A DNA stretch of 52,569 nucleotides from positions 1 through 52,569 of the forward strand of contig QHNH01000032.1 in NCBI GenBank assembly GCA_003218375.1, read 5' to 3'. Within the stretch, counting starts at the first letter, position 1. Each line of letters starts with the position of its first letter. The position numbers and the translations under genes were made by a program. The DNA comes from Verrucomicrobiota bacterium. Lineage in GTDB: Bacteria > Verrucomicrobiota > Verrucomicrobiia > Chthoniobacterales > UBA10450. Under the pieces are notes generated by a model, which saw only the letters and a list, made by a program, of their open reading frames with translations, was not told the origin of the DNA and made no database searches. This document shows positions 32,584 to 51,799 of the stretch, one piece after another.

Positions 32584-32612
32584 CTGTAGCGGCGGCCTCT
32601 GGCCGTCGATTG
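32584..32612. repeat. Single hairpin with tgtagc end
   Basis: The bases ctgtagcggcggcc-tct-ggccgtcg form an 8-bp stem (one G-U pair) just after the hydrolase stop. The tgtagc(g/c)g start is shared with elements at 42702, 47280 and 50349, so this looks like half of one of those. It could also serve as a terminator. Confidence 0.6.
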
Positions 32613-37036: not shown

Positions 37037-37106
37037 GCAGGCTATGACAATTGATCACGGCAAAGGTTCAAGCCGGAACGCGACGAAAATGCGGCTACGC
37101 CGCGTT

Positions 37107-37237
37107 AAGCTCCAAATTCCAGGCACCAAGCACCAGAGAAACACCAAGCACCAAACTTCGAAAAGCGCATGGCAACTTTCACTGGAACTTGGTTATTGGA
37201 GCTTCTCTGGAGCTTGGATGTTGGAGCTTGGAGCTTT
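37107..37237. repeat. GGAGCTTGG-type imperfect inverted repeat, copy 1
   Basis: About 130 bases. The left half carries units such as aagctccaaattcc and aagcaccagagaaac; the right half carries the complementary ttggttattggagcttctctggagcttgg (split by units of about seven bases). The two halves pair imperfectly. Related copies lie at 42352, 43583 and 51221. Together with short flanks it makes up most of the 312-base spacer between the divergent genes at 37036 and 37349; no gene is seen there. Confidence 0.85.
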
Positions 37238-37348
37238 TTGTAGCAACCGAGACGGAGGGCAGACAAAAATTCGGCGGCAGTATTTTCTTGGAAAGGGTCG
37301 GCGCGTGAGCCAGGATGCGGTCGCGGCCCCGCAACATCCTAATTAAAT

Positions 37349-39772
37349 ATGATGACTGACCTGCGCTTTGCGCTGCGGCAGTTGCGGAAATCACCGGGGT
37401 TCACGCTGCTGGCCGTTATTACTCTCACGCTCGGGATCGGGCTCAACACGGCGATCTTTAGTTTGATCAACGATCTGTTCCTCCGCGGGCTTCCGTTCAA
37501 GGAGCCGGACCGGGTCGTACACATGTATTCGAACGCGCGGGAGCGCAATCTCCTCGAGCTGCTGGTGTCGGTCCCGCGCTTCCAGCATTTCCGCGCGGCC
37601 CAGAAAATTTTTGACGGATTCGCAGGCGAGAACGCAGTTCCGTTTACCCTGACTGGACTCGGCGATGCCGTTCAGCTTTTCGGCGGCAAGGTGACATCGA
37701 ACTATTTCGAGGTCCTCGGCGTCCGGCCGATTCGTGGCCGGAATTTTTTGCCGGAAGAAGAAGAGACGGCCGACGTGGCGATGGTGACGGAAAATTTCTG
37801 GCGGAAACGCATGGGCGGCGATGCTAGCGTGATCGGGCGCAGCATCACGCTCGACGGCGTGCCGCACACGATCGTGGGCGTGCTCCCGAACCTGCCGTTC
37901 TCCTGGATCGGACCGAATGCCGAGATCTGGACCACGAAACCGTTTCTGGTTCCCGGACTTTCCAACGAACGAATCATGCGGGGCAGCGGTTTCCTGCGCG
38001 TGATCGGGCGACTGAAACCCGGAATGACGATCGAACAGGCACGGGCCGCGATGCCGCCGCTCGAGCAAAGTTATCGGGCGCAATATCCGGGCAAGATCGA
38101 CAGCTCATCGGTCATGACGCTGAAAACGTTGCCTGAAGATGTGACGGGAAATCTGCGGCCGGCCTTCGCGACTTTGCTCGCAGCGGTCGCGTTTGTTCTG
38201 CTGATCGCGTGCAGCAACGTGGCGAATCTTTTGCTGGTGCGTTTCAGCGGGCGGCTCCGCGAAATCTCCGTGCGGATGGCGCTGGGGGCATCGCGCGGGA
38301 GCGTGCTCCGTCTTTTTGTTTTCGAAAGCCTGCTCGTGAGTCTGCTCGCGGGAATCGTCGGCGCGGCGGTCGCGTGGCAGCTGGTGCCGCTCGTTCCGCA
38401 AATGGCGGCGAACTTTCTCCCGTTCGATCCCGCGACTCCCATCAGCATTTCGCTGCCCGTGCTCGGGTTCACCATTGCCTTGTCGATATTGACCGGAGTC
38501 GCGATGGGAATTTATCCGGCCTGGCAAAGTTCGCGCGCCGACTTGGTGGACGGATTGAAGGAAGGCGGACGCGGAACGAGCGGGAGCATGCGGCAACAAC
38601 GTTTCCGCAAGATCCTGGTCGGCGCGCAAGTCGCGCTCTCGGTCACGTTGCTGGCGGGCGCGGCGTTGCTCATCACGAGCTTCGTGAAATTGAGCCGGCA
38701 AAGCATCGGGTTTCGCCCCGAGAATATGTGGACCGGCCTGGTAACGCTGCCGCAAGCGGGCTATCCCGATTCCGCGACGCGCCAGCGTTTTGTGGAAAAG
38801 ACGCTGGCCGCGCTGCGCTCAATCCCAAGTATCCAAAGCGCCACGATCAGCGGCGACATCCCATTGATCGCCGCCGCCGCCAGTAACATGCTTTACACCC
38901 GCCCGGACGGAGAAATTTTGCCAGTGGATAAACGGGCCGCCGCCGCGTACCATCAGATCGCGCCGGACTATCTTAAGACCTTCGGCATACCCATCGTGGC
39001 GGGACGCGAGTTCGATGAGCACGACATTGCCGGCAATCAGAACGTGATACTGATCAGCCAGGCGGGTGCACGCAAAGTTTTCGGCAACGAGAACCCGATC
39101 GGTAAAACGCTTCTCATCTCTTTTTCGAGCACGCCGGTCGAGATCGTCGGCGTGGTGGGTGATGTGCGGACACGGAGCGTTGCGAATCCCGACGAAGTCG
39201 AAATCTATCGTCCGTGGGCCCAGGAGAATATTCAGTTCGCCGTGATCGCGGTGCGGAGCCCGCTGCGAGAGGACGCGGTGACGAAAGTGGTGCAGTCGGC
39301 ACTGGGCACGGTCGATCCCGGGTTGGCCATCGCGATTCCGCAATCGATGGACGCGATCGTGGCGCAAGCGCTGGGCGAGGCGCGGCTGATGATGTGGTTG
39401 CTGGGGATTTTTTCCGGCGCGGCCTTGTTGCTGGCAACGGTGGGGATTTATGGCGCGGTGGCCTACACGGTGGAGCAACGGACAGGCGAGATCGGGGTGC
39501 GAATGGCGCTCGGCGCGCAAACCAAAGACATTTTGCGGCTGGTGCTGGCGCAAGGAATGAAACCGGTGGGATTCGGATTGGTCGTGGGATTGGCGGCGGC
39601 GCTCGCGCTCGGAAGATTAATCGCCGCGCAACTATATCAGGTCTCGGTCTACAGTCCGTTGTTGTTGATCGGAACCGCGGGAACCCTCGCGCTGGCCGCG
39701 ATACTCGCGTGTCTGTTCCCAGCCCGGCGCGCGACGCAGCTGAATCCAGTCGATGCGCTGCGCGCGGAATGA
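37349..39772 (+). CDS. Duplicated FtsX/MacB-type ABC permease (ADOP-like), first of tandem pair
   Basis: An 807-residue inner-membrane protein with two MacB-PCD/FtsX units. It opens MMTDLRFALRQLRKSPGFTLL, with the first helix LLAVITLTLGIGLNTAIFSL, then a periplasmic domain (about 50-270), a three-helix FtsX block (LLIACSNVANLLLVRFSGR...EISVRMALGASRGSV), a second helix (LVGAQVALSVTLLAGAALLI), a second periplasmic domain, and a second FtsX block (EQRTGEIGVRMALGAQT) ending NPVDALRAE. It fits acidobacterial-type duplicated orphan permeases that lack an adjacent ATPase. It probably exports peptides, lipids or antibiotics; the substrate is unknown. Confidence 0.93.
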   Translation: MMTDLRFALRQLRKSPGFTLLAVITLTLGIGLNTAIFSLINDLFLRGLPFKEPDRVVHMYSNARERNLLELLVSVPRFQHFRAAQKIFDGFAGENAVPFTLTGLGDAVQLFGGKVTSNYFEVLGVRPIRGRNFLPEEEETADVAMVTENFWRKRMGGDASVIGRSITLDGVPHTIVGVLPNLPFSWIGPNAEIWTTKPFLVPGLSNERIMRGSGFLRVIGRLKPGMTIEQARAAMPPLEQSYRAQYPGKIDSSSVMTLKTLPEDVTGNLRPAFATLLAAVAFVLLIACSNVANLLLVRFSGRLREISVRMALGASRGSVLRLFVFESLLVSLLAGIVGAAVAWQLVPLVPQMAANFLPFDPATPISISLPVLGFTIALSILTGVAMGIYPAWQSSRADLVDGLKEGGRGTSGSMRQQRFRKILVGAQVALSVTLLAGAALLITSFVKLSRQSIGFRPENMWTGLVTLPQAGYPDSATRQRFVEKTLAALRSIPSIQSATISGDIPLIAAAASNMLYTRPDGEILPVDKRAAAAYHQIAPDYLKTFGIPIVAGREFDEHDIAGNQNVILISQAGARKVFGNENPIGKTLLISFSSTPVEIVGVVGDVRTRSVANPDEVEIYRPWAQENIQFAVIAVRSPLREDAVTKVVQSALGTVDPGLAIAIPQSMDAIVAQALGEARLMMWLLGIFSGAALLLATVGIYGAVAYTVEQRTGEIGVRMALGAQTKDILRLVLAQGMKPVGFGLVVGLAAALALGRLIAAQLYQVSVYSPLLLIGTAGTLALAAILACLFPARRATQLNPVDALRAE

Positions 39773-39923
39773 TCGCTGGAAAGTAGGAAGTAGGAAGTAG
39801 AAAAAAAGGGAACGCGGATAACGAGACGGAACTGAAATGCGACGGCGTTAATTAATTGAATCCGACAGCACACCCCGGCGCATCTCAACTTTGCGGCATT
39901 TGGACGCTTAACTCACCACGCTT

Positions 39924-42341
39924 ATGATGACTGACCTTCGTTTCGCGCTGCGGCAACTGCGGAAATCGCCGGGGTTCACGCTCCTGGCGGTGATCACACT
40001 CACGCTCGGGATCGGGCTGAACACGGCGATCTTTTCGCTGATCAACGATCTGTTCCTGAAAGGGCTGCCGTTCCAGGAGCCGGGACGCGTGCTCCAGGTC
40101 TTTTCGCATTTCAGGGAGCAGACGGTCGATTTTCCGCTCTCGGCGCCGCGCTACACCCATTTCCGCGACGGCCAAACCATCTTCGACGGATTCGCGGCTG
40201 AGAATGGACTGGCCGCGACGGTGACCGGACTGGGTGATCCGTTTCAAGTGCCGATGTTCAAGACGACCGCGAACTATTTCGATGTGCTCGGCTTACGCGC
40301 GACCCAGGGCCGGACTTTTCGGGCAGAGGAAGAGGAAGGCGCGGATGTCGCAGTGATCACGCAACGATTTTGGAAAGCGCGGCTGGGCAGCGACCCGAAC
40401 GTGATTGGGCGCGCGCTAACGCTCGATGGCGTGGCGCACACGATCGTGGGCGTGATCCCGACGCTGCCGGTTTCGTGGACCGGACCGAACGCGGATATCT
40501 GGACAACGAAGCCGTTTATCATTCCGGGTTTCTCGCACGAGCGCATGATGCGCGGGACGGCGTTCCTCCGCGCGGTCGGCCGATTGAAACCGAACATCAC
40601 GGTGGAGCAGGCCCGCGCCTCACTGCAGCTGCTCGGTGACAGTTATCGCTCGCAGTATCCGGAAAAGATCGACGCGAAATCCGGGACGGTGACGAAGACG
40701 CTGCCGGAAGCTGTGACGGAGAATCTGCGGCCGGGCTTCGCCACCTTGCTGGCGGCGGTGACATTTGTCCTGCTGATCGCGTGCAGCAACGTCGCGAACT
40801 TGTTGCTCGTCAGGTTCAGCGGCCGGCGCCGCGAGATTTCATTGCGGATGGCGCTGGGAGCATCGCGCGGAAGTGTGCTGCGGCTTTTCGTGTTTGAAAG
40901 CGTGCTCGTCAGTTTGCTCGCGGGAATTCTCGGAGCAGTCCTCGCCTGGCAGTTGGTCCCGCTCGTCCCGAAACTTGCGGCCAACTTTCTTCCCATCGAA
41001 GCCGGGGCCGCGACCGCGATTTCATTTCCGGTCCTGGCCTTCACGGTCGGGCTCTCGCTTCTCACCGGCGTGGTAATGGGTTTGTATCCCGCGTGGCAAA
41101 GCTCGCGCGCGGATTTGGTGGATGGTTTGAAGGAAGGTGGCCGCGGCTCGAGCGGGAGCGTGCAGCAGCAACGTTTCCGCAAAGTGCTCGTCGGCGCGCA
41201 GGTCGCGCTTTCGGTGACGCTGGTCGCGGGGGCGTCGCTGCTCATCGCGAGCTTCATGGCGCTCAGCCATCAAAATCCCGGCTTCAAGCCGGAAAATCTT
41301 TGGATCGGCCTGACGGTGATGCCGCAGGCGCAATATCCCGACGTCGCTTCGCGCAACCGTTTTGCCGACCAGATGACGAGCGCGTTGCGCGCGACGCCTG
41401 GTGTGCAGGAAGTGTCGATCAGCGGCGGTTTCCCGCTCTTCGGTGGCGCCGGCGCCACGCTCTACACGCGCGCTGACGGCAACATTCCCCCGGTCGCGGA
41501 GCGCAAAGGCGCGCCTTCAAACGACATCACCCCGGGTTGGCTTCGCACTCTTGGAATTCCGCTCCTCGCCGGCCGCGATTTCAACGAGCAGGACATCGCC
41601 GATCATCCGAACGTCATCCTGATCAGCGCCACGGGCGCGAAGACGGTTTTCGGCAATGAGAATCCAGTCGGCAAAACGTTGCTCATCACGAGCGGCAGCG
41701 TGCCCGTCGAAATCGTGGGCGTCGTCGGCGATGTGCGCTCCGTCCGGCTCGATCAGCAAAACGACATGGAATTCTATCGGCCGTTTGCCCAGGAAAATTT
41801 TCCGTTCCTCACCATCACGGTGCGGAGTCCTTTGCCGCCGGACACCGTGACAAAATCAGTCCAGGCTGCGCTGAAGACAATCGATCCCGGCCTCGCGCTG
41901 GTTCTGCCGCAACCGGTCAGCGAGATTATGGCGCAAGCGCTCGGCCAGGCGAAACTGATGATGACGTTGCTCGGCGTTTTCGCCGGCGTGGCGCTGGTGC
42001 TGGCGACGGTGGGAATTTACGGTGCGGTCGCTTACACGGTGGAGCAGCGGACGGGCGAGATAGGAGTGCGGATGGCACTGGGCGCGCAAACGATGGATGT
42101 GCTGCGGCTGATCGTGAAGCAGGGCATGACGCCGGTGGTGTTCGGGCTGGTGGTAGGAATCGGAGCAGCGCTGGCGCTGGGAAGATTGATCGCGGCGCAG
42201 CTTTACCAGGTCTCCGCGCATAATCCGATGTTGCTTGGGACGACGGCGGCCGTGCTGGCGCTGGCGGCGCTCCTCGCGTGTCTGTTTCCGGCGCGACGCG
42301 CGAGCCATCTGAATCCGGTCGAAGCGCTGCGGGTGGAGTAG
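39924..42341 (+). CDS. Duplicated FtsX/MacB-type ABC permease (ADOP-like), second of tandem pair
   Basis: An 805-residue paralogue of the preceding protein with the same start (MMTDLRFALRQLRKSP), the same domain order and the same end (NPVEALRVE). The first ~45 residues and both FtsX blocks are nearly identical to copy one, while the periplasmic domains differ more (EPGRVLQVFSHFREQTVDF versus EPDRVVHMYSNARERNLLE), which fits divergence of binding specificity after tandem duplication. It lies 151 bases downstream of copy one. No macA-like adaptor, ATPase, or outer-membrane channel is nearby. Confidence 0.93.
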   Translation: MMTDLRFALRQLRKSPGFTLLAVITLTLGIGLNTAIFSLINDLFLKGLPFQEPGRVLQVFSHFREQTVDFPLSAPRYTHFRDGQTIFDGFAAENGLAATVTGLGDPFQVPMFKTTANYFDVLGLRATQGRTFRAEEEEGADVAVITQRFWKARLGSDPNVIGRALTLDGVAHTIVGVIPTLPVSWTGPNADIWTTKPFIIPGFSHERMMRGTAFLRAVGRLKPNITVEQARASLQLLGDSYRSQYPEKIDAKSGTVTKTLPEAVTENLRPGFATLLAAVTFVLLIACSNVANLLLVRFSGRRREISLRMALGASRGSVLRLFVFESVLVSLLAGILGAVLAWQLVPLVPKLAANFLPIEAGAATAISFPVLAFTVGLSLLTGVVMGLYPAWQSSRADLVDGLKEGGRGSSGSVQQQRFRKVLVGAQVALSVTLVAGASLLIASFMALSHQNPGFKPENLWIGLTVMPQAQYPDVASRNRFADQMTSALRATPGVQEVSISGGFPLFGGAGATLYTRADGNIPPVAERKGAPSNDITPGWLRTLGIPLLAGRDFNEQDIADHPNVILISATGAKTVFGNENPVGKTLLITSGSVPVEIVGVVGDVRSVRLDQQNDMEFYRPFAQENFPFLTITVRSPLPPDTVTKSVQAALKTIDPGLALVLPQPVSEIMAQALGQAKLMMTLLGVFAGVALVLATVGIYGAVAYTVEQRTGEIGVRMALGAQTMDVLRLIVKQGMTPVVFGLVVGIGAALALGRLIAAQLYQVSAHNPMLLGTTAAVLALAALLACLFPARRASHLNPVEALRVE

Positions 42342-42351
42342 CCGCTACGCG

Positions 42352-42480
42352 GAAGCTCCAAATTCCAAGCTCCAAGCTCCAGAGAAACATCAAGCTCCAA
42401 ACTTCAAATGGCGCGTCGCAGATTGTTTGGAGCTTGGTTATTGGAGCTTCTCTGGAGCTTGGTGCTTGGTGTTTGGAGCT
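42352..42480. repeat. GGAGCTTGG-type imperfect inverted repeat, copy 2
   Basis: About 129 bases with gaagctccaaattccaagc at the left and ggtgcttggtgtttggagct at the right, plus an inner agctccagagaaac / gcttctctggagctt pair. It occupies nearly the whole spacer between the second permease and the RNA methyltransferase. It ends exactly at the methyltransferase stop codon (TAA at 42482-42480). Confidence 0.87.
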
Positions 42481-43577
42481 TAGCGGGCTTTCAGGTGCGC
42501 GACGGCTTCGATCTCGGCGGTTTGCGGGAACATGTCGAACGGGGCGATCGAGGCGACGGCGAAGCGCTGCTGCAATTCGGCGAGGTCGCGCGCGAGAGTG
42601 GGGGGATTGCAGGAGACGTAGATCATCGTGCGCGGCGGGGAATCGAGAATGACGCGACGCAATTCGGGGGAAAGACCGGTGGCGGGTGGATCGACGATCA
42701 GTGTAGTGGCGGGTGTCCCCACCCGCGGGATGTTTGGGTCTGCGGGTGAGACACTCGCCGCTACATCGTTTAGTGCGCGGCGTAGTTCGATGGCGATATC
42801 GCCGGCGATGTAAGTCTCGTTAGGCCGGGCGTCTTTGCGGGCGGCGTCGATCGCGAAGCGGTCCCAGTCGATGCCGAGGACGCGCTCGAATTGTGGCGCG
42901 AGCCGTTTCGCGAAAAAACCGGCGCCGCAGAACGCGTCGATGAGGAATTCGTTCTCGCTGGCCAGGATCGTCGCGATGAAATCAGCCAGGGCATCGGCGA
43001 CTGCGTCGTTGGTTTGCGCGAACACGCGAGGGCCGGAGTGGGCGCGCAAAGAGTAATGACCGTCGCGCGGCCGCGTGGCGCGCAACTCGGTGAGCGCCTT
43101 GTTCACTTCCGGCATCGAGATCGGGCACTGGGCGATATCCATCAGCTCGTGAACATCGCGCCGGTAAAAGCCGACGACGTCATCTTGGGCATGCACCGTG
43201 ATGCGGTTGCGATAGCCGTAAGAAAGAGGAGACGAAACAATCGGCCGCATCGGCGGTTCGGCGAGACGTGCGATGCGGCGCATCGCCTGTTCAACCTGCC
43301 GGGCCTTGAGTTCGAGTTGGTGGTTGTAGCTAATGTGCTGATAACTGCAGCCGCCGCAGCGTCCGAAATACGGGCAGGATGGTGCGACGCGCTCGGCCGA
43401 TGGCTCCAGCACCTCGATTAATTCGGCCTCAGCAAATTGCTTTTTTTCCCGGACGATGTTCGCCGTGACGCGCTCGCCTTCGATGGTGAATGGGACGAAG
43501 ACGGCTTTGCCGTTGTCGCGCGCCACGCCTTTCCCGCCGAAAGCGATGTCCTGAATTGTTAGGTCGACTGTGCGCAT
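42480..43577 (-). CDS. RNA m5U methyltransferase, TrmA/RlmD family, with repeat-encoded insert
   Basis: About 365 residues from ATG 43577; further upstream the frame only reads a repeat. A TRAM-like N-terminus (DLTIQDIAFGGKGVARDNGKAVFVPFTIEGE) is followed by an iron-sulfur motif CPYFGRCGGCSY plus AQCPIS, the Rossmann SAM site LIDAFCGAGFF, and the catalytic YVSCNPPTLARDL. The enzyme methylates a uridine in rRNA or tRNA. Before IVDPPATGL, about 21 residues (DVAASVSPADPNIPRVGTPAT) are encoded by a palindromic repeat at 42702-42765; family members have no such loop. If the insert is tolerated, the enzyme is still complete. Confidence 0.92.
   Translation of the reverse strand: MRTVDLTIQDIAFGGKGVARDNGKAVFVPFTIEGERVTANIVREKKQFAEAELIEVLEPSAERVAPSCPYFGRCGGCSYQHISYNHQLELKARQVEQAMRRIARLAEPPMRPIVSSPLSYGYRNRITVHAQDDVVGFYRRDVHELMDIAQCPISMPEVNKALTELRATRPRDGHYSLRAHSGPRVFAQTNDAVADALADFIATILASENEFLIDAFCGAGFFAKRLAPQFERVLGIDWDRFAIDAARKDARPNETYIAGDIAIELRRALNDVAASVSPADPNIPRVGTPATTLIVDPPATGLSPELRRVILDSPPRTMIYVSCNPPTLARDLAELQQRFAVASIAPFDMFPQTAEIEAVAHLKAR
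42702..42765. repeat. 64-base palindromic element inside the methyltransferase gene
   Basis: The ends are tgtagtggcgggtgtcc and agacactcgccgctaca, inverted copies with three mismatches, and the interior has cacccgcggg / tgcgggtgag. The tgtag...ctaca ends match repeats at 47280 and 50349. It lies within coding sequence, in frame, with no stop. This resembles coding palindromic elements described in Rickettsia, but the family here is different. Confidence 0.82.
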
Positions 43578-43582
43578 GTGGG

Positions 43583-43714
43583 AAAAGCTCCAAGCTCCAA
43601 GCACCAAGCTCCAGAGAAGCTCCAATAACCAAGCACCAAAGCAACGAGACGCGTCCCCTTTGAAGTTTGGAGCTTGGTGTTTCTCTGGAGCTTGGAGCTT
43701 GGAATTTGGAGCTT
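43583..43714. repeat. GGAGCTTGG-type imperfect inverted repeat, copy 3
   Basis: About 132 bases, left end aaaagctccaagctcc, right end ggagcttggaatttggagct, with the same inner ctccagagaagctcc / ttctctggagc units. It spans the spacer between the methyltransferase start and the histidine kinase stop, and its right end touches the kinase stop (TAA at 43716-43714). It therefore covers the methyltransferase promoter region. Confidence 0.87.
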
Positions 43715-45759
43715 TAGCCGGCGCTTGCCATTGCGCGCGCGATGGCGGCCTCGAGCTTCTCCAGCTTCACCGGTTTCACCAGATGTTCCGCAAAGCCGGC
43801 TTCGATGCTTTTTCTGATATCGGCGTCCATGCCGAAGCCGCTAATGGCGATACCGCGGATGGGTCGTTGAGCGCGCAGGTAGCGAATCAAGTCCATGCCG
43901 TTGCCATCGGGCAAGCCGACATCGCTGATAAGAAGATCAAACGAAACGCCCGCGCCCGCGACTTCCATCGCTTCGCGCATGCTGTGGGCGGCGGCGACGC
44001 TGTGGCCGCGCAGGGTGAGCAGTTTTTCCAAGGCGGCGCACGTGTCCGGATGATCGTCGACGAGCAAAATGCGGAGGCCGGCCGGCGGCGTTTGCGCGTC
44101 GAGCGGGCTAGGTTTGGTCGAGGCTTCGTCCAGTTCCGCGGTTTTCATCGTGAGCAGGAACGTGGCGCCGCGGCCGGTGCCCTCGCTCTTCGCAATGAGG
44201 GACGCGCCATGAGCTTGCGCGAGCGATTTGGAAATGGTCAGGCCGAGGCCGAGCCCGCCGAAGCGCCGTTGAAACGAGCGCTCACCCTGCTCGAACGGAT
44301 TGAAAATCCGCTCCATGATTTCCGGTTCAATGCCGATGCCGGTGTCGCCGACGGCGAGGGTGAGGATATGCGGTAGATGGTTCGCGGAAGAGATCGTAAT
44401 GGTGCCGTTCTCACCGGTGAACTTGATCGCGTTCTTGAACAGGTTCCAAACGATCTGCTGGAATTTCGCCGGATCGGCCATGATGCGGAAGTCGGTGGCG
44501 TGGAACTCGAGTTGGACCTGGAGTTTTTTCGCGTGCGCTTCCGAGGCGCACATTTCGAGGACGTTGCGGACGGCCTGATGCGCATCGACGGGTTCGAATT
44601 CCAAATGGAGCTTGTCCTTGGTGATGCGGGTGAGATCGAGCAGGTCGTCGATGAGCTGGCTTTCCAGTTCGATGTTGCGCCGCATCATGGCGAGCGTCGC
44701 CTCCACGTCTGCGGCCGGTTGCGGCTCGGTCTTCAACGTGTCGAGCGCCGCCAGCACCGGTGTGAGTGGCGTGCGCAGCTCGTGCGAGAGCATCGCCAGG
44801 AAATTGTCCTTGGTCCGGTTCGCGGCCTCGACGGTGGCGCGCTGTTCTTCGATGGCGGCCTCGGCCCGGCGCCGTTCCGCCATTCCGGCAGCCAGCGCGA
44901 CCGCCGTGATGGTGGTGAGAATATTGAAGCTTTGCAGAATGAGAAGCGATTGATTCTGGTCCGCGCGCACAAACGGCCCGTAGCGTTGCAGCGTTCCCCA
45001 GACGGCGATCGCGGAAAGAACAAAGAGCCCGGTGGCGGTCTCGCGGGCGGAAAGGCGAAACGCAGTCCAGACGATGATGGGCCCGAGGAGGAAAGCGATC
45101 GGGTAATTGAGGGTGCTAATCGAAAACCAACCGCCGAAGACGACTTCGCTGAGAAACGTCAGGAGTAGAAGTAAGATGGCGACTTCGATGTCGCGGGCTG
45201 GATTTATCCGGCGAAACGGTTGAGCCAGCCAGAGAACCAGCAGCGGCGCGAACATGACCACGCCGCCGAGATCGCCGAGCCACCACGTCAGCCAGATGGC
45301 GGGATAATTTGCCCAGTCGGCAAAGCTAGCGATGGCCAGTCCGGTCAGGCCGATTGTCGGACTGACGAGGGTGCTAAGGGCGACGACAAGAGCGAATTTG
45401 AAAACATCGTAAGCGCGATCAAAGACGCGCAGGCCGCCGGCGAAACGCTGGATGAGCCAGGCGCCGATCACCGCTTCGAGGGTGTTTCCTGTCGCGATTC
45501 CGAACGAGGTGAAAATATTTCCAGGCGTGGTGAGATTGACCAGGAAAGCGCCGATGAAAATAGCCGGCCAGAGACGGAAGCCGAAGAGCAACAACGCCGC
45601 GAGCGCGATGCCTGCCGGCGGCCAGACTGGCGAGGCGCTGGCGTGGAGGGACGCCAGCCTGAGGCTAAGTTTGCCCGCGACGAAGTAAACGACGGCGAGA
45701 ATTACCGCGGTCAGCGCGGTTCGGAAACGTCGTGAGTTGTCTGGCGGCGCCTGCTCCAA
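43714..45759 (-). CDS. MASE1-type hybrid histidine kinase with receiver domain
   Basis: A 681-residue sensor. Residues 10-295 form eight or more membrane helices of the MASE1 type (WPPAGIALAALLLFGFRLWPAIFIGAF; WLTWWLGDLGGVVMFAPLLVLW). The dimerisation domain has the phospho-His at His326 in MLSHELRTPL. The ATPase domain shows NLFKNAIKF (N box), GDTGIGIEPEI, FGGLGLGLTI. A C-terminal receiver follows: LLVDDHPDTC, phosphoacceptor Asp in LISDVGLPDG, and Lys in HLVKPVKLE. No Hpt or separate regulator is adjacent, so the final target is unknown. A signal sensed in or through the membrane is likely. Confidence 0.95.
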   Translation of the reverse strand: MEQAPPDNSRRFRTALTAVILAVVYFVAGKLSLRLASLHASASPVWPPAGIALAALLLFGFRLWPAIFIGAFLVNLTTPGNIFTSFGIATGNTLEAVIGAWLIQRFAGGLRVFDRAYDVFKFALVVALSTLVSPTIGLTGLAIASFADWANYPAIWLTWWLGDLGGVVMFAPLLVLWLAQPFRRINPARDIEVAILLLLLTFLSEVVFGGWFSISTLNYPIAFLLGPIIVWTAFRLSARETATGLFVLSAIAVWGTLQRYGPFVRADQNQSLLILQSFNILTTITAVALAAGMAERRRAEAAIEEQRATVEAANRTKDNFLAMLSHELRTPLTPVLAALDTLKTEPQPAADVEATLAMMRRNIELESQLIDDLLDLTRITKDKLHLEFEPVDAHQAVRNVLEMCASEAHAKKLQVQLEFHATDFRIMADPAKFQQIVWNLFKNAIKFTGENGTITISSANHLPHILTLAVGDTGIGIEPEIMERIFNPFEQGERSFQRRFGGLGLGLTISKSLAQAHGASLIAKSEGTGRGATFLLTMKTAELDEASTKPSPLDAQTPPAGLRILLVDDHPDTCAALEKLLTLRGHSVAAAHSMREAMEVAGAGVSFDLLISDVGLPDGNGMDLIRYLRAQRPIRGIAISGFGMDADIRKSIEAGFAEHLVKPVKLEKLEAAIARAMASAG

Positions 45760-47279: not shown

Positions 47280-47363
47280 TCTTCTGTAGCCGTCGCCCTA
47301 TGGGCGACGTGATCGCGGCGACGATTTCACTCACGCTTCGCACAACGAAGCGGCTACAGAAGA
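47280..47363. repeat. Palindromic repeat with cttctgtagcc / ggctacagaag ends
   Basis: The left part cttctgtagccgtcgccc-tat-gggcgacg and the right part cgcttcgcacaacgaagcggctacagaag form two hairpins whose outer ends are complementary. A further ggcggctaca follows. It belongs to the same family as 50349-50440. It lies in the divergent TerC/Gre spacer and supplies the spurious upstream frame of TerC. Confidence 0.8.
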
Positions 47364-51178: not shown

Positions 51179-51220
51179 TCTATGACTTCGCGACAGCTCA
51201 CTCGGGTTCGAAACTGTTTA

Positions 51221-51270
51221 TTTGGAACTTGGAGCTTCTCTGGAGCTTGGAGCTTGGGATTTGGAGCTTC
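51221..51270. repeat. GGAGCTTGG-type repeat, half copy
   Basis: About 50 bases reading tttggaacttggagcttctctggagcttgg (in two blocks) and ggatttggagctt, equal to the right half of the 130-base elements at 37107, 42352 and 43583. The left half is absent. It lies between the ferritin stop and the methyltransferase start. Confidence 0.82.
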
Positions 51271-51286
51271 CGCGCCATCGGCGCGG

Positions 51287-51799
51287 TCATTCTTGTTTCG
51301 TCGCCGGCATCGTCTTCACTCCCACCCGCGCCAAGTACTCATCCGCCTGGAGCAAATCCGCCCCCGCCCGCTGCACGATCTTCAACAGATTATCCATCGA
51401 CGAAACCTCCTCGAGTTGTTCCGTCAGGAACCACTGGAGAAAATTGATCGTGATATAATCGTTCTCCGATCGCGCCAGCTCTACCAGCGCATTGATCTGG
51501 TGTGTCACCTTCACCTCCTGGTCGAGCGACAACTTCACCGCCTGCTCCGGGTTCTTGAATTTCGACTGCGGCGCATCGAGCGCCGGGATCACCACAGTTC
51601 CGCCCGCGTCCACCACATATTTGATAAACCGCAGCGCATGCGCCTTCTCCTCCTCCGCCTGCTGGAAAAAATGCGCCGATAACTGCGGCAACGCCTCCGC
51701 CGCAAAATGCGCCGCGATCGCGTAATACTGCATGGACGCACTGAATTCGTACCCGATCTGTTCGTTGATAGCATCGATGACTTTTTGACTTGTGAGCAT
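51287..51799 (-). CDS. Bacterial ferritin (non-haem)
   Basis: A 170-residue four-helix ferritin from ATG 51799, preceded by AAAGGA eight bases upstream; the frame further upstream is not needed. Ferroxidase residues are in EQIGYEFSASMQYYAIAAHF (Glu), FFQQAEEEKAHALRFIKYV (Glu, Glu, His), LDQEVKVTHQINALVELA (Glu), and FLQWFLTEQLEEVSSM (Gln/Glu). The enzyme oxidises Fe(II) and stores the mineral in a 24-subunit shell. No Fur box was recognised by eye in the short upstream region. Confidence 0.94.
   Translation of the reverse strand: MLTSQKVIDAINEQIGYEFSASMQYYAIAAHFAAEALPQLSAHFFQQAEEEKAHALRFIKYVVDAGGTVVIPALDAPQSKFKNPEQAVKLSLDQEVKVTHQINALVELARSENDYITINFLQWFLTEQLEEVSSMDNLLKIVQRAGADLLQADEYLARVGVKTMPATKQE

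Follow-up and report, generated by a model that had tools for sequence, protein, structure and literature searches.

How a palindromic repeat comes to stand in the open frame of a core enzyme, and whether it arrived there as a mobile element or belongs to an ancestral loop of the protein, is the question raised by this locus. The window, by which the whole analysed stretch of 52,569 nucleotides is meant, carries at 42702-42765 a 64-base palindromic repeat, in frame and stop-free within a methyltransferase gene of the TrmA/RlmD type in a soil bacterium. This had been claimed in a preliminary description, and it is confirmed by the sequence, the fold and the TIGR00479 profile. The reading preferred here, with a probability of about 0.85, is that a REP/RAYT system supplies elements which would be read through as peptide and would thereby be kept in core enzymes, in loops that tolerate them.

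Features of the window to which the text refers:

42480..43625, minus strand: RlmD/RumA-like 23S rRNA (uracil-5-)-methyltransferase, a 381-aa open frame with a TTG start (profile match)
42702..42765, no strand assigned: REPIN of type A, two inverted GTAG-tagged REPs; the minus-strand reading gives residues 287-308 (DVAASVSPADPNIPRVGTPATT)
42702..42726, plus strand: left REP, a TGTAG tag and then the hairpin GCGGGTG-tccc-CACCCGC (sequence)
42727..42741, no strand assigned: 15-nt spacer between left and right REP (sequence)
42742..42765, minus strand: right REP, inverted (sequence)
47281..47362, no strand assigned: REPIN of another GTAG family (tgtagccgtcgccc...), its REP family being that which flanks the RAYT gene L016
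50350..50440, no strand assigned: second REPIN of the 47281 GTAG family (sequence)
32585..32608, plus strand: single GTAG hairpin (tgtagcggcggcctctggccgtcg)

The palindrome and its host gene

The element consists of a 25-nt left arm (tgtagtggcgggtgtccccacccgc), the spacer and a 24-nt right arm, in the order TGTAG, hairpin arm, spacer and inverted arm with a terminal CTACA. A GTAG-type tag adjoins a short hairpin, as is characteristic of REPINs, and in folding as single-stranded DNA the two inverted REPs formed one larger hairpin with an energy of -24.8 kcal/mol, in comparison with -10.4 +/- 2.0 for 200 dinucleotide shuffles, none of which was as good (z -7.3). The minus-strand reading codes 22 residues directly before LIVDPP. 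About 21 extra residues before IVDPP had been announced earlier; the net gain against congeners is 14. The 381-aa frame matched TIGR00479 (RlmD/RumA) with an E value of 1.3e-71 and 241.8 bits, passing the cut-off of 183.55, and NF009639 (PRK13168) with 230.1, under that profile's own cut-off of 458. Judging from the orthologue L018, which begins at the corresponding place, the ATG at 43577 (residue 17) seems the likelier start.

An AlphaFold model of the window protein, computed from a 13-row alignment, reached a mean pLDDT of 83, and its fold matches the solved RumA/RlmCD structures. The insert lies between the helix 277-291 and the strand 307-311, and pLDDT falls below 50 in 10 of its 22 residues (293-296 and 298-303). 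Taken by its sequence, the element is a REPIN that stands in frame between the predicted helix and strand preceding the DPP motif. Because the loop enters the strand ending in DPP from the far end, it should lie away from the active site, as far as topology indicates. Most likely, the peptide brings no new function and is a mostly disordered passenger that the enzyme tolerates.

In the genome to which the window belongs (52 contigs, 97.8% complete), 39 BLAST matches to the element with its flank and 38 to the element by itself were obtained at E<=10, counts which include the element itself and some places on both strands. Eight other places match nearly the whole element with 74-79% identity. 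These true relatives are located on other contigs than that of the window, so that the dispersal claimed in the preliminary description stands, albeit not with the copies it named. Those at 47280 and 50349 have nothing but the TGTAG tag in common with the element and were rejected as relatives, their REP family being that of L016, and that at 32584 is a single GTAG hairpin. The window as a whole gave 35 raw hits to GTAG, GGAG and GTGG hairpins, overlapping alternatives included, versus 0-5 in five first-order Markov sequences.

For the search for copies inside other coding genes, which had been proposed earlier, a scan was made of 30 repeat loci, some of them one place on both strands, and 20 of the 28 candidate frames were given to Pfam. 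On these 20 frames, most of which were without a Pfam match, type-A copies lie mostly outside genes, and the only Pfam-recognised genes with a repeat well inside are RlmD and a DNA ligase; one further copy stands at the end of a frame (L067). The ligase (L185) is ATP-dependent and fused to a metallo-beta-lactamase-like part, and its type-A REP adjoins the EDKFDG motif. Read by eye, the same gene (G000:C42:118500-122500) holds two REP-like stretches, one of them directly before EDKFDG.

One RlmD loop across the family

Matches to RlmD were found in 68 of the 83 genomes of the family. Sixty-six loci were examined, in 64 of which the loop is whole (L117 and L118 end at contig edges), and all 64 whole loops are in frame and without a stop. 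The script that picked the loops required two motifs in one frame and missed L039 and L103, which were read by hand and are also in frame; L121, a duplicate of L041, was left out, and L017, the same record as L031, was counted once.

Within the genus, six of the eight genomes carry a plain stretch of 30 residues (YVAGDVTTELRWLLQQSDLATTALIVDPPA and the like) without any element. Therefore, the refutation foreseen in the preliminary description, an ancestral loop, does not hold, and that candidate was dropped. The loop holds the type-A REPIN in the window's species and an unrelated palindrome, type C, in the sister G020, whose own genome gave 52 BLAST matches to type C (E<=0.001; some counted on both strands), many of them over 65-70 nt; one type-C copy in G020 lies inside a CT_A_B carboxyltransferase.

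The comparison with congeners, suggested earlier as the way to exact borders, located the flanks: the element sits between (..CTAAACGA) and (CTGATCGTCG..). A clean insertion is not what is seen, as about 22 nt of the loop are replaced rather than the element being simply added. Possible explanations of the missing nucleotides are later trimming or the replacement of an older element. No target-site duplication is visible by eye against the congeners. Transposition of single strands by HUH enzymes makes no target duplication, and its absence fits such a process.

In other genera the RlmD loop carries type B, A' or D. Type B is a 55-nt GGTAG element, of which many copies at 95-98% identity were found in G003, G005 and G045, and copies outside RlmD reach 98% over the whole element. 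It was present in 7 of the 8 genomes searched, with no match in the window's genome (E<=0.001). Having the repeat is not enough for a filled loop, since G022 gave 14 type-B matches and its RlmD loop is empty. When six frames per palindrome are considered, three are open in type A, two in type B and five in type C; with three of six open, the read-through of type A is in itself not improbable.

Local alignment of each loop, compared with 200 shuffles of itself, typed 62 rows as A/A' (6), B (11, with L100 weak), C (1), D (4) and none (40). On a gene tree built without the loop, at least 16 changes of loop type are needed, and no fewer than five palindrome sequences occupy this single loop in the family. 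By eye, more loops are palindromic than the typing counts, and 26 of the 40 untyped loops are plain; six loops had been assigned to type C by eye, of which the typing against shuffles upheld one. Hosts that are near-identical can differ in type, as exemplified by L052 (type D) versus L059 and L056 (type B), separated by host branches of 0.011-0.025 on a quick tree without bootstrap. A pattern search of the retrieved DNA found types D and A' at RlmD loci only and at no place outside them.

These data also bear on the idea that the loop is a fast-evolving, GC-rich disordered stretch, in which palindromes arose in place through hairpin-templated replication errors. Such an origin would agree with a loop length that varies by lineage, with the 40 of 62 loops that match none of the five palindromes, and with the roughly 20 nt of the old loop that are missing at the window's element. 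It is nevertheless quite improbable, as types A, B and C each have matching copies scattered over the genomes that carry them (for type B with up to 98% identity) and near-identical hosts carry unrelated types. Even less probable is that the palindrome was kept for an effect on the mRNA, either attenuation or stability, instead of having moved there and been tolerated. Passages of one study put forward roles of REPs in transcription termination and mRNA stabilisation as hypotheses (PMC3733652), but at RlmD the sequence, length and very presence of the hairpin differ between close relatives, and ribosomes would be expected to melt a hairpin in the middle of a frame. What the loop supports is the earlier suggestion of a mobile element able to create protein loops, given that a dispersed repeat stands in frame and that the loop has been refilled repeatedly across the family.

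RAYT genes within core enzymes

RAYTs, the transposases that accompany REPs, are HUH/Y1 nucleases acting on single strands. In the window's genome, Y1_Tnp (PF01797) gave 12 matches at E<=0.001, and one more when the threshold was relaxed to E<=0.01. Several are RAYT genes of the ordinary kind with REPs on either side, namely L014 (GTAG), L015 (GGAG) and L016 (the REP family of 47281 and 50350). The type-A REP pattern, with up to 2 substitutions allowed, was found at none of the 14 loci that cover all 13 matches. Three of the matches lie in long host frames:

CarB, 1335 aa: L182, G000:C52
MetH, 1492 aa: L183, G000:C25
RecG, 889 aa: L184, G000:C11

A genus-wide search reporting frame length, together with 14 further genomes whose stretches were likewise read, yielded 39 in-frame RAYT copies: 22 in RecG, 6 in CarB, 2 + 2 at two sites of MetH, 3 in Sua5, 2 in AlaS, 1 in ValS and 1 in ThrS. 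Among the RecG frames, that of G025 is truncated past the RAYT by the end of its contig, and the two from G065 and G053 are nearly identical. Beyond the 39, three damaged CarB-RAYTs were found: in G060 (L259, G060:C250) the break, real or due to assembly, is within the transposase and CarB lies in two frames, in G064 the frame breaks at a run of N, and in G073 there is one TAG. The frames L187 and L196-L199, from Y1 matches in frames of 310-381 aa, were set aside as they are not host enzymes by eye.

When seven chimeras were scanned with Pfam (E<=0.01), six showed the order host, Y1_Tnp, host, the Y1 matches in two of the six, the RecG and AlaS chimeras, being under Pfam's cut-off. The seventh, ThrS, had no Y1 match at this threshold and scored 20.5 bits in the frame-length search. 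No intein family was found at E<=0.01 among the Pfam matches of the seven, and an identity as inteins was rejected for want of a splicing domain in these matches. This result touches on the reading in which the insert is skipped or removed at expression, be it by ribosome bypass, by splicing of the RNA or by protein splicing of the intein kind. Removal is common among mobile elements that lie within genes, and the strong in-gene hairpins may be likened to known bypass elements. We regard this reading as highly improbable, however, because removal would not require the RlmD loops to be in frame and stop-free, as all 64 whole ones are, and because the chimeras lack intein families.

If the embedded transposases came as mobile units that are read through, their borders are of interest. 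For 22 embedded copies the two flanks were compared for exact inverted matches, and in 15 of them the longest one exceeded that of all 20 codon shuffles, with lengths of 11-32 nt against shuffle maxima of 9-13. Nine copies have a match of 16-26 nt, in most cases of the GGAG type GGGGAGCGCACGCGCCTCGCGTGC, and at ThrS it reaches 32 nt; the CarB-RAYT of the window's genome is bordered by a 15-nt inverted repeat. The seven copies that were not above the shuffles are L184, L243, L241, L189, L244, L250 and L193, and hairpins adjoin most of them. Of 29 rows, 27 retain the HUH motif as well as the YxxxNP (tyrosine) motif, the exceptions being L208, without HUH, and L204, without the tyrosine; the AlaS copy of G080, read later, has YVH.

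The genomes are fragmented drafts, and the three publicly named ones are metagenome-assembled. In G026 (95% complete) the ThrS chimera is the sole full ThrS, with one further match of 61 residues, and in G080 (90% complete) the AlaS chimera is the sole AlaS match. By this gene content, both enzymes would have to work with the insert, unless the assemblies miss a second copy.

At the ThrS loop that holds the RAYT in L195, four other species of the genus (L263, L265, L266 and L268) have inserts of 75-88 residues which look mutually unrelated and not REP-like, and the loop of G020 has 24 residues. In L183 and L188 the second half of MetH includes a further in-frame stretch that resembles a REP (GSARASRAGDGASPSR); it precedes the activation domain, and its position is the one occupied by a whole RAYT in G065 and G042. 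In L249 (G042:C65) a frame resembling histidinol-phosphate aminotransferase, named by eye, runs into a C-terminal RAYT, possibly a terminal fusion.

The distribution of these chimeras is broad and uneven. With the RecG chimera as query, a RecG match was obtained in 151 of the order's 157 genomes, and in at least 21 the alignment continues through the RAYT; those listed belong to the families f1, f3, f6 and f7 of the order. Many other genomes of the order have RecG without a RAYT. The CarB chimera gave, in the 83 genomes of the family, 16 single matches over the whole length (that of G073 with its TAG) and 9 partial ones through the RAYT, so that CarB-RAYT is found in at least 25 of the 83. Within the genus, direct reading showed the CarB site to be occupied in G000, the window's genome, and in G026, with 296 and 267 residues between two CarB motifs, and to be empty in G021 and G025, with 24; in G020, G022 and G023, CarB matches as split, shorter frames.

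At RecG, the sister species differ: the window's genome carries a RAYT of type I, G020 one of type II and G026 none, these types having first been named by eye. A similar case is that of G013 (type II) and G017 (type I), whose host parts differ by dN 0.03. In the RAYT tree the copy of the window's genome groups with other type I copies, and G020, G021, G022 and G013 stand together; the tree of host RecG disagrees, joining G000 to G020 and G013 to G017. Both trees are quick ones without bootstrap. From the RAYT tree L201, a copy of L200, was left out, and 11 of the 27 free RAYT loci were not recovered for it; the RecG-RAYT of G025, type I by eye, is unplaced in it. The RecG of G024 (L218) has no RAYT; where other RecG genes hold one, it has a peptide of REP-like sequence (SQLAVSGSRSDT), possibly what remained once a transposase was lost.

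For 14 overlapping pairs of RecG-RAYTs, which are not independent and do not include the near-identical G065/G053, pN was 0.085-0.222 and pS 0.59-0.87, and for the host parts the values were 0.071-0.186 and 0.48-0.67; synonymous sites are near saturation, and dS is therefore not well estimated. As pN is far below pS, purifying selection on the RecG-embedded transposase is strong and comparable in degree to that on RecG.

Such selection could also mean that the RAYT domains in RecG, CarB and the other enzymes are domesticated enzyme parts kept for function. RecG is a branch-migration helicase and a plausible partner for a single-strand nuclease, and the wide presence in RecG and CarB and the mostly intact HUH and tyrosine motifs would suit domestication as well. 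We consider it unlikely, though the strongest of the alternatives, because close relatives lack the domain or have a different RAYT at the same site, because RAYTs are found likewise in unrelated enzymes such as CarB and the aminoacyl-tRNA synthetases, and because the RAYT and host trees partly disagree. Under the preferred reading, of mobile elements that persist as translated parts of tolerant loops, RAYTs turn over at the same RecG and CarB sites and are probably translated as a part of the enzyme.

Proposed mechanism and known systems

It is proposed that RAYT proteins act on single-stranded DNA, where they would cleave REP hairpins and rejoin them, bringing REPINs and sometimes the whole REP-RAYT-REP unit to new sites. 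Most landings would fall outside genes, and a landing within a gene would survive only under three conditions: no stop in the REP ends, an undisturbed frame and a loop that can accommodate the peptide. Once within a core enzyme, an element would be protected, since an imprecise deletion would break the enzyme, and an embedded transposase could be produced from the host gene. The RlmD insert would then represent the small, non-autonomous end of a series that extends up to the embedded RAYTs. We infer that the elements are translated, that the enzymes are active and that the elements are mobile.

A bolder proposal, to which we give somewhat better than even odds, is that complete REP-RAYT-REP units of the order are "read-through" transposons, whose ends and body would constitute one open frame and which would transpose in one piece to loops of core enzymes. 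Such an enzyme would work with the inserted transposase domain, the host gene would offer both shelter and promoter, and the REPINs would be short relatives of these units, the whole being intein-like without splicing. Inteins and similar nested elements are kept in core genes where their imprecise loss is harmful; unlike them, the seven chimeras scanned show no splicing domain among their Pfam matches, and the loop would retain the transposase as a domain.

With REPINs, GTAG REPs and RAYT (TnpA-REP) genes, the locus shares tagged hairpins, inverted doublets and many copies, as well as RAYT genes of the same genome flanked by their own REPs, but the RlmD copy differs in being in frame within a gene. 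REPs were sought as extragenic sequences in the part of PMC3116915 that concerns them, and genomes with REPs but no tnpA-REP gene are mentioned in a passage of a survey (PMC6006769). Intragenic GTAG and CGTC REPs have been described, most of them in Opitutus terrae and Rickettsia conorii, with in-frame dimers coding 20-30 residues in enzymes, among them repair and RNA-modifying enzymes, with a DNA ligase in O. terrae and the RNA-modifying ones in other species; in recB, two Xanthomonas species have different REPs at about the same site (passages of PMC3733652). As in-frame GTAG REPs had already been reported there for a verrucomicrobium, O. terrae, the novelty of a "different phylum" put forward in the preliminary description is lost, and the RlmD insert itself belongs to a known class.

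The parallel with Rickettsia drawn in the same description holds as a likeness of working, palindromes adding in-frame peptides to proteins, and not as membership. The intragenic RPE-4 and RPE-6 of R. conorii are counted as CGTC repeats in the same passages (PMC3733652), while the RlmD element is GTAG-tagged, a separation made by tag. In comparison with the REPs of that study, one RlmD loop is here refilled in many species with unrelated palindromes, which could be followed on a tree.

As for the transposases, RAYTs are characterised in passages of PMC6006769 and PMC8266576 as domesticated, usually with one full-length gene per REP type, and their units as apparently non-transposing. The 2018 survey describes, in the sections concerned, a tnpA-REP subclass 2.4, which shares the insertion of a REP with the frame kept; there the REP lies inside the transposase, whereas here a transposase with its REPs lies inside host enzymes. 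In the same survey, a small number of TnpAY1 proteins of unexpected length were excluded, being regarded as fused genes or as faults of annotation (PMC6006769). The intragenic-REP section and early discussion of PMC3733652 make no mention of a complete RAYT gene inside an enzyme, and a description of RAYTs in frame inside enzymes was not found in the openly licensed literature. What is new is the recurrence at one RlmD loop and, to a greater degree, the presence of in-frame transposases within core enzymes.

If true, this would amount to a way for transposons to live inside essential proteins without splicing, would provide proteins naturally with new loops and inserted domains, and would account for some enzymes being misannotated as "fusions". 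It would also make it testable, through sister species with a difference at a single site, whether RAYTs are still moving REPINs and why they are kept.

Around the RlmD gene of the window, repeats of the AAGCTCCAA/TTGGAGCTT type lie on both sides (42353-42481 and 43583-43723) and recur at 37098-37238 and 51216-51288, forming long imperfect inverted repeats. The window also holds a tandem pair of MacB-like permease genes (37348-39777 and 39923-42346), about 72-81% alike over the matched parts.
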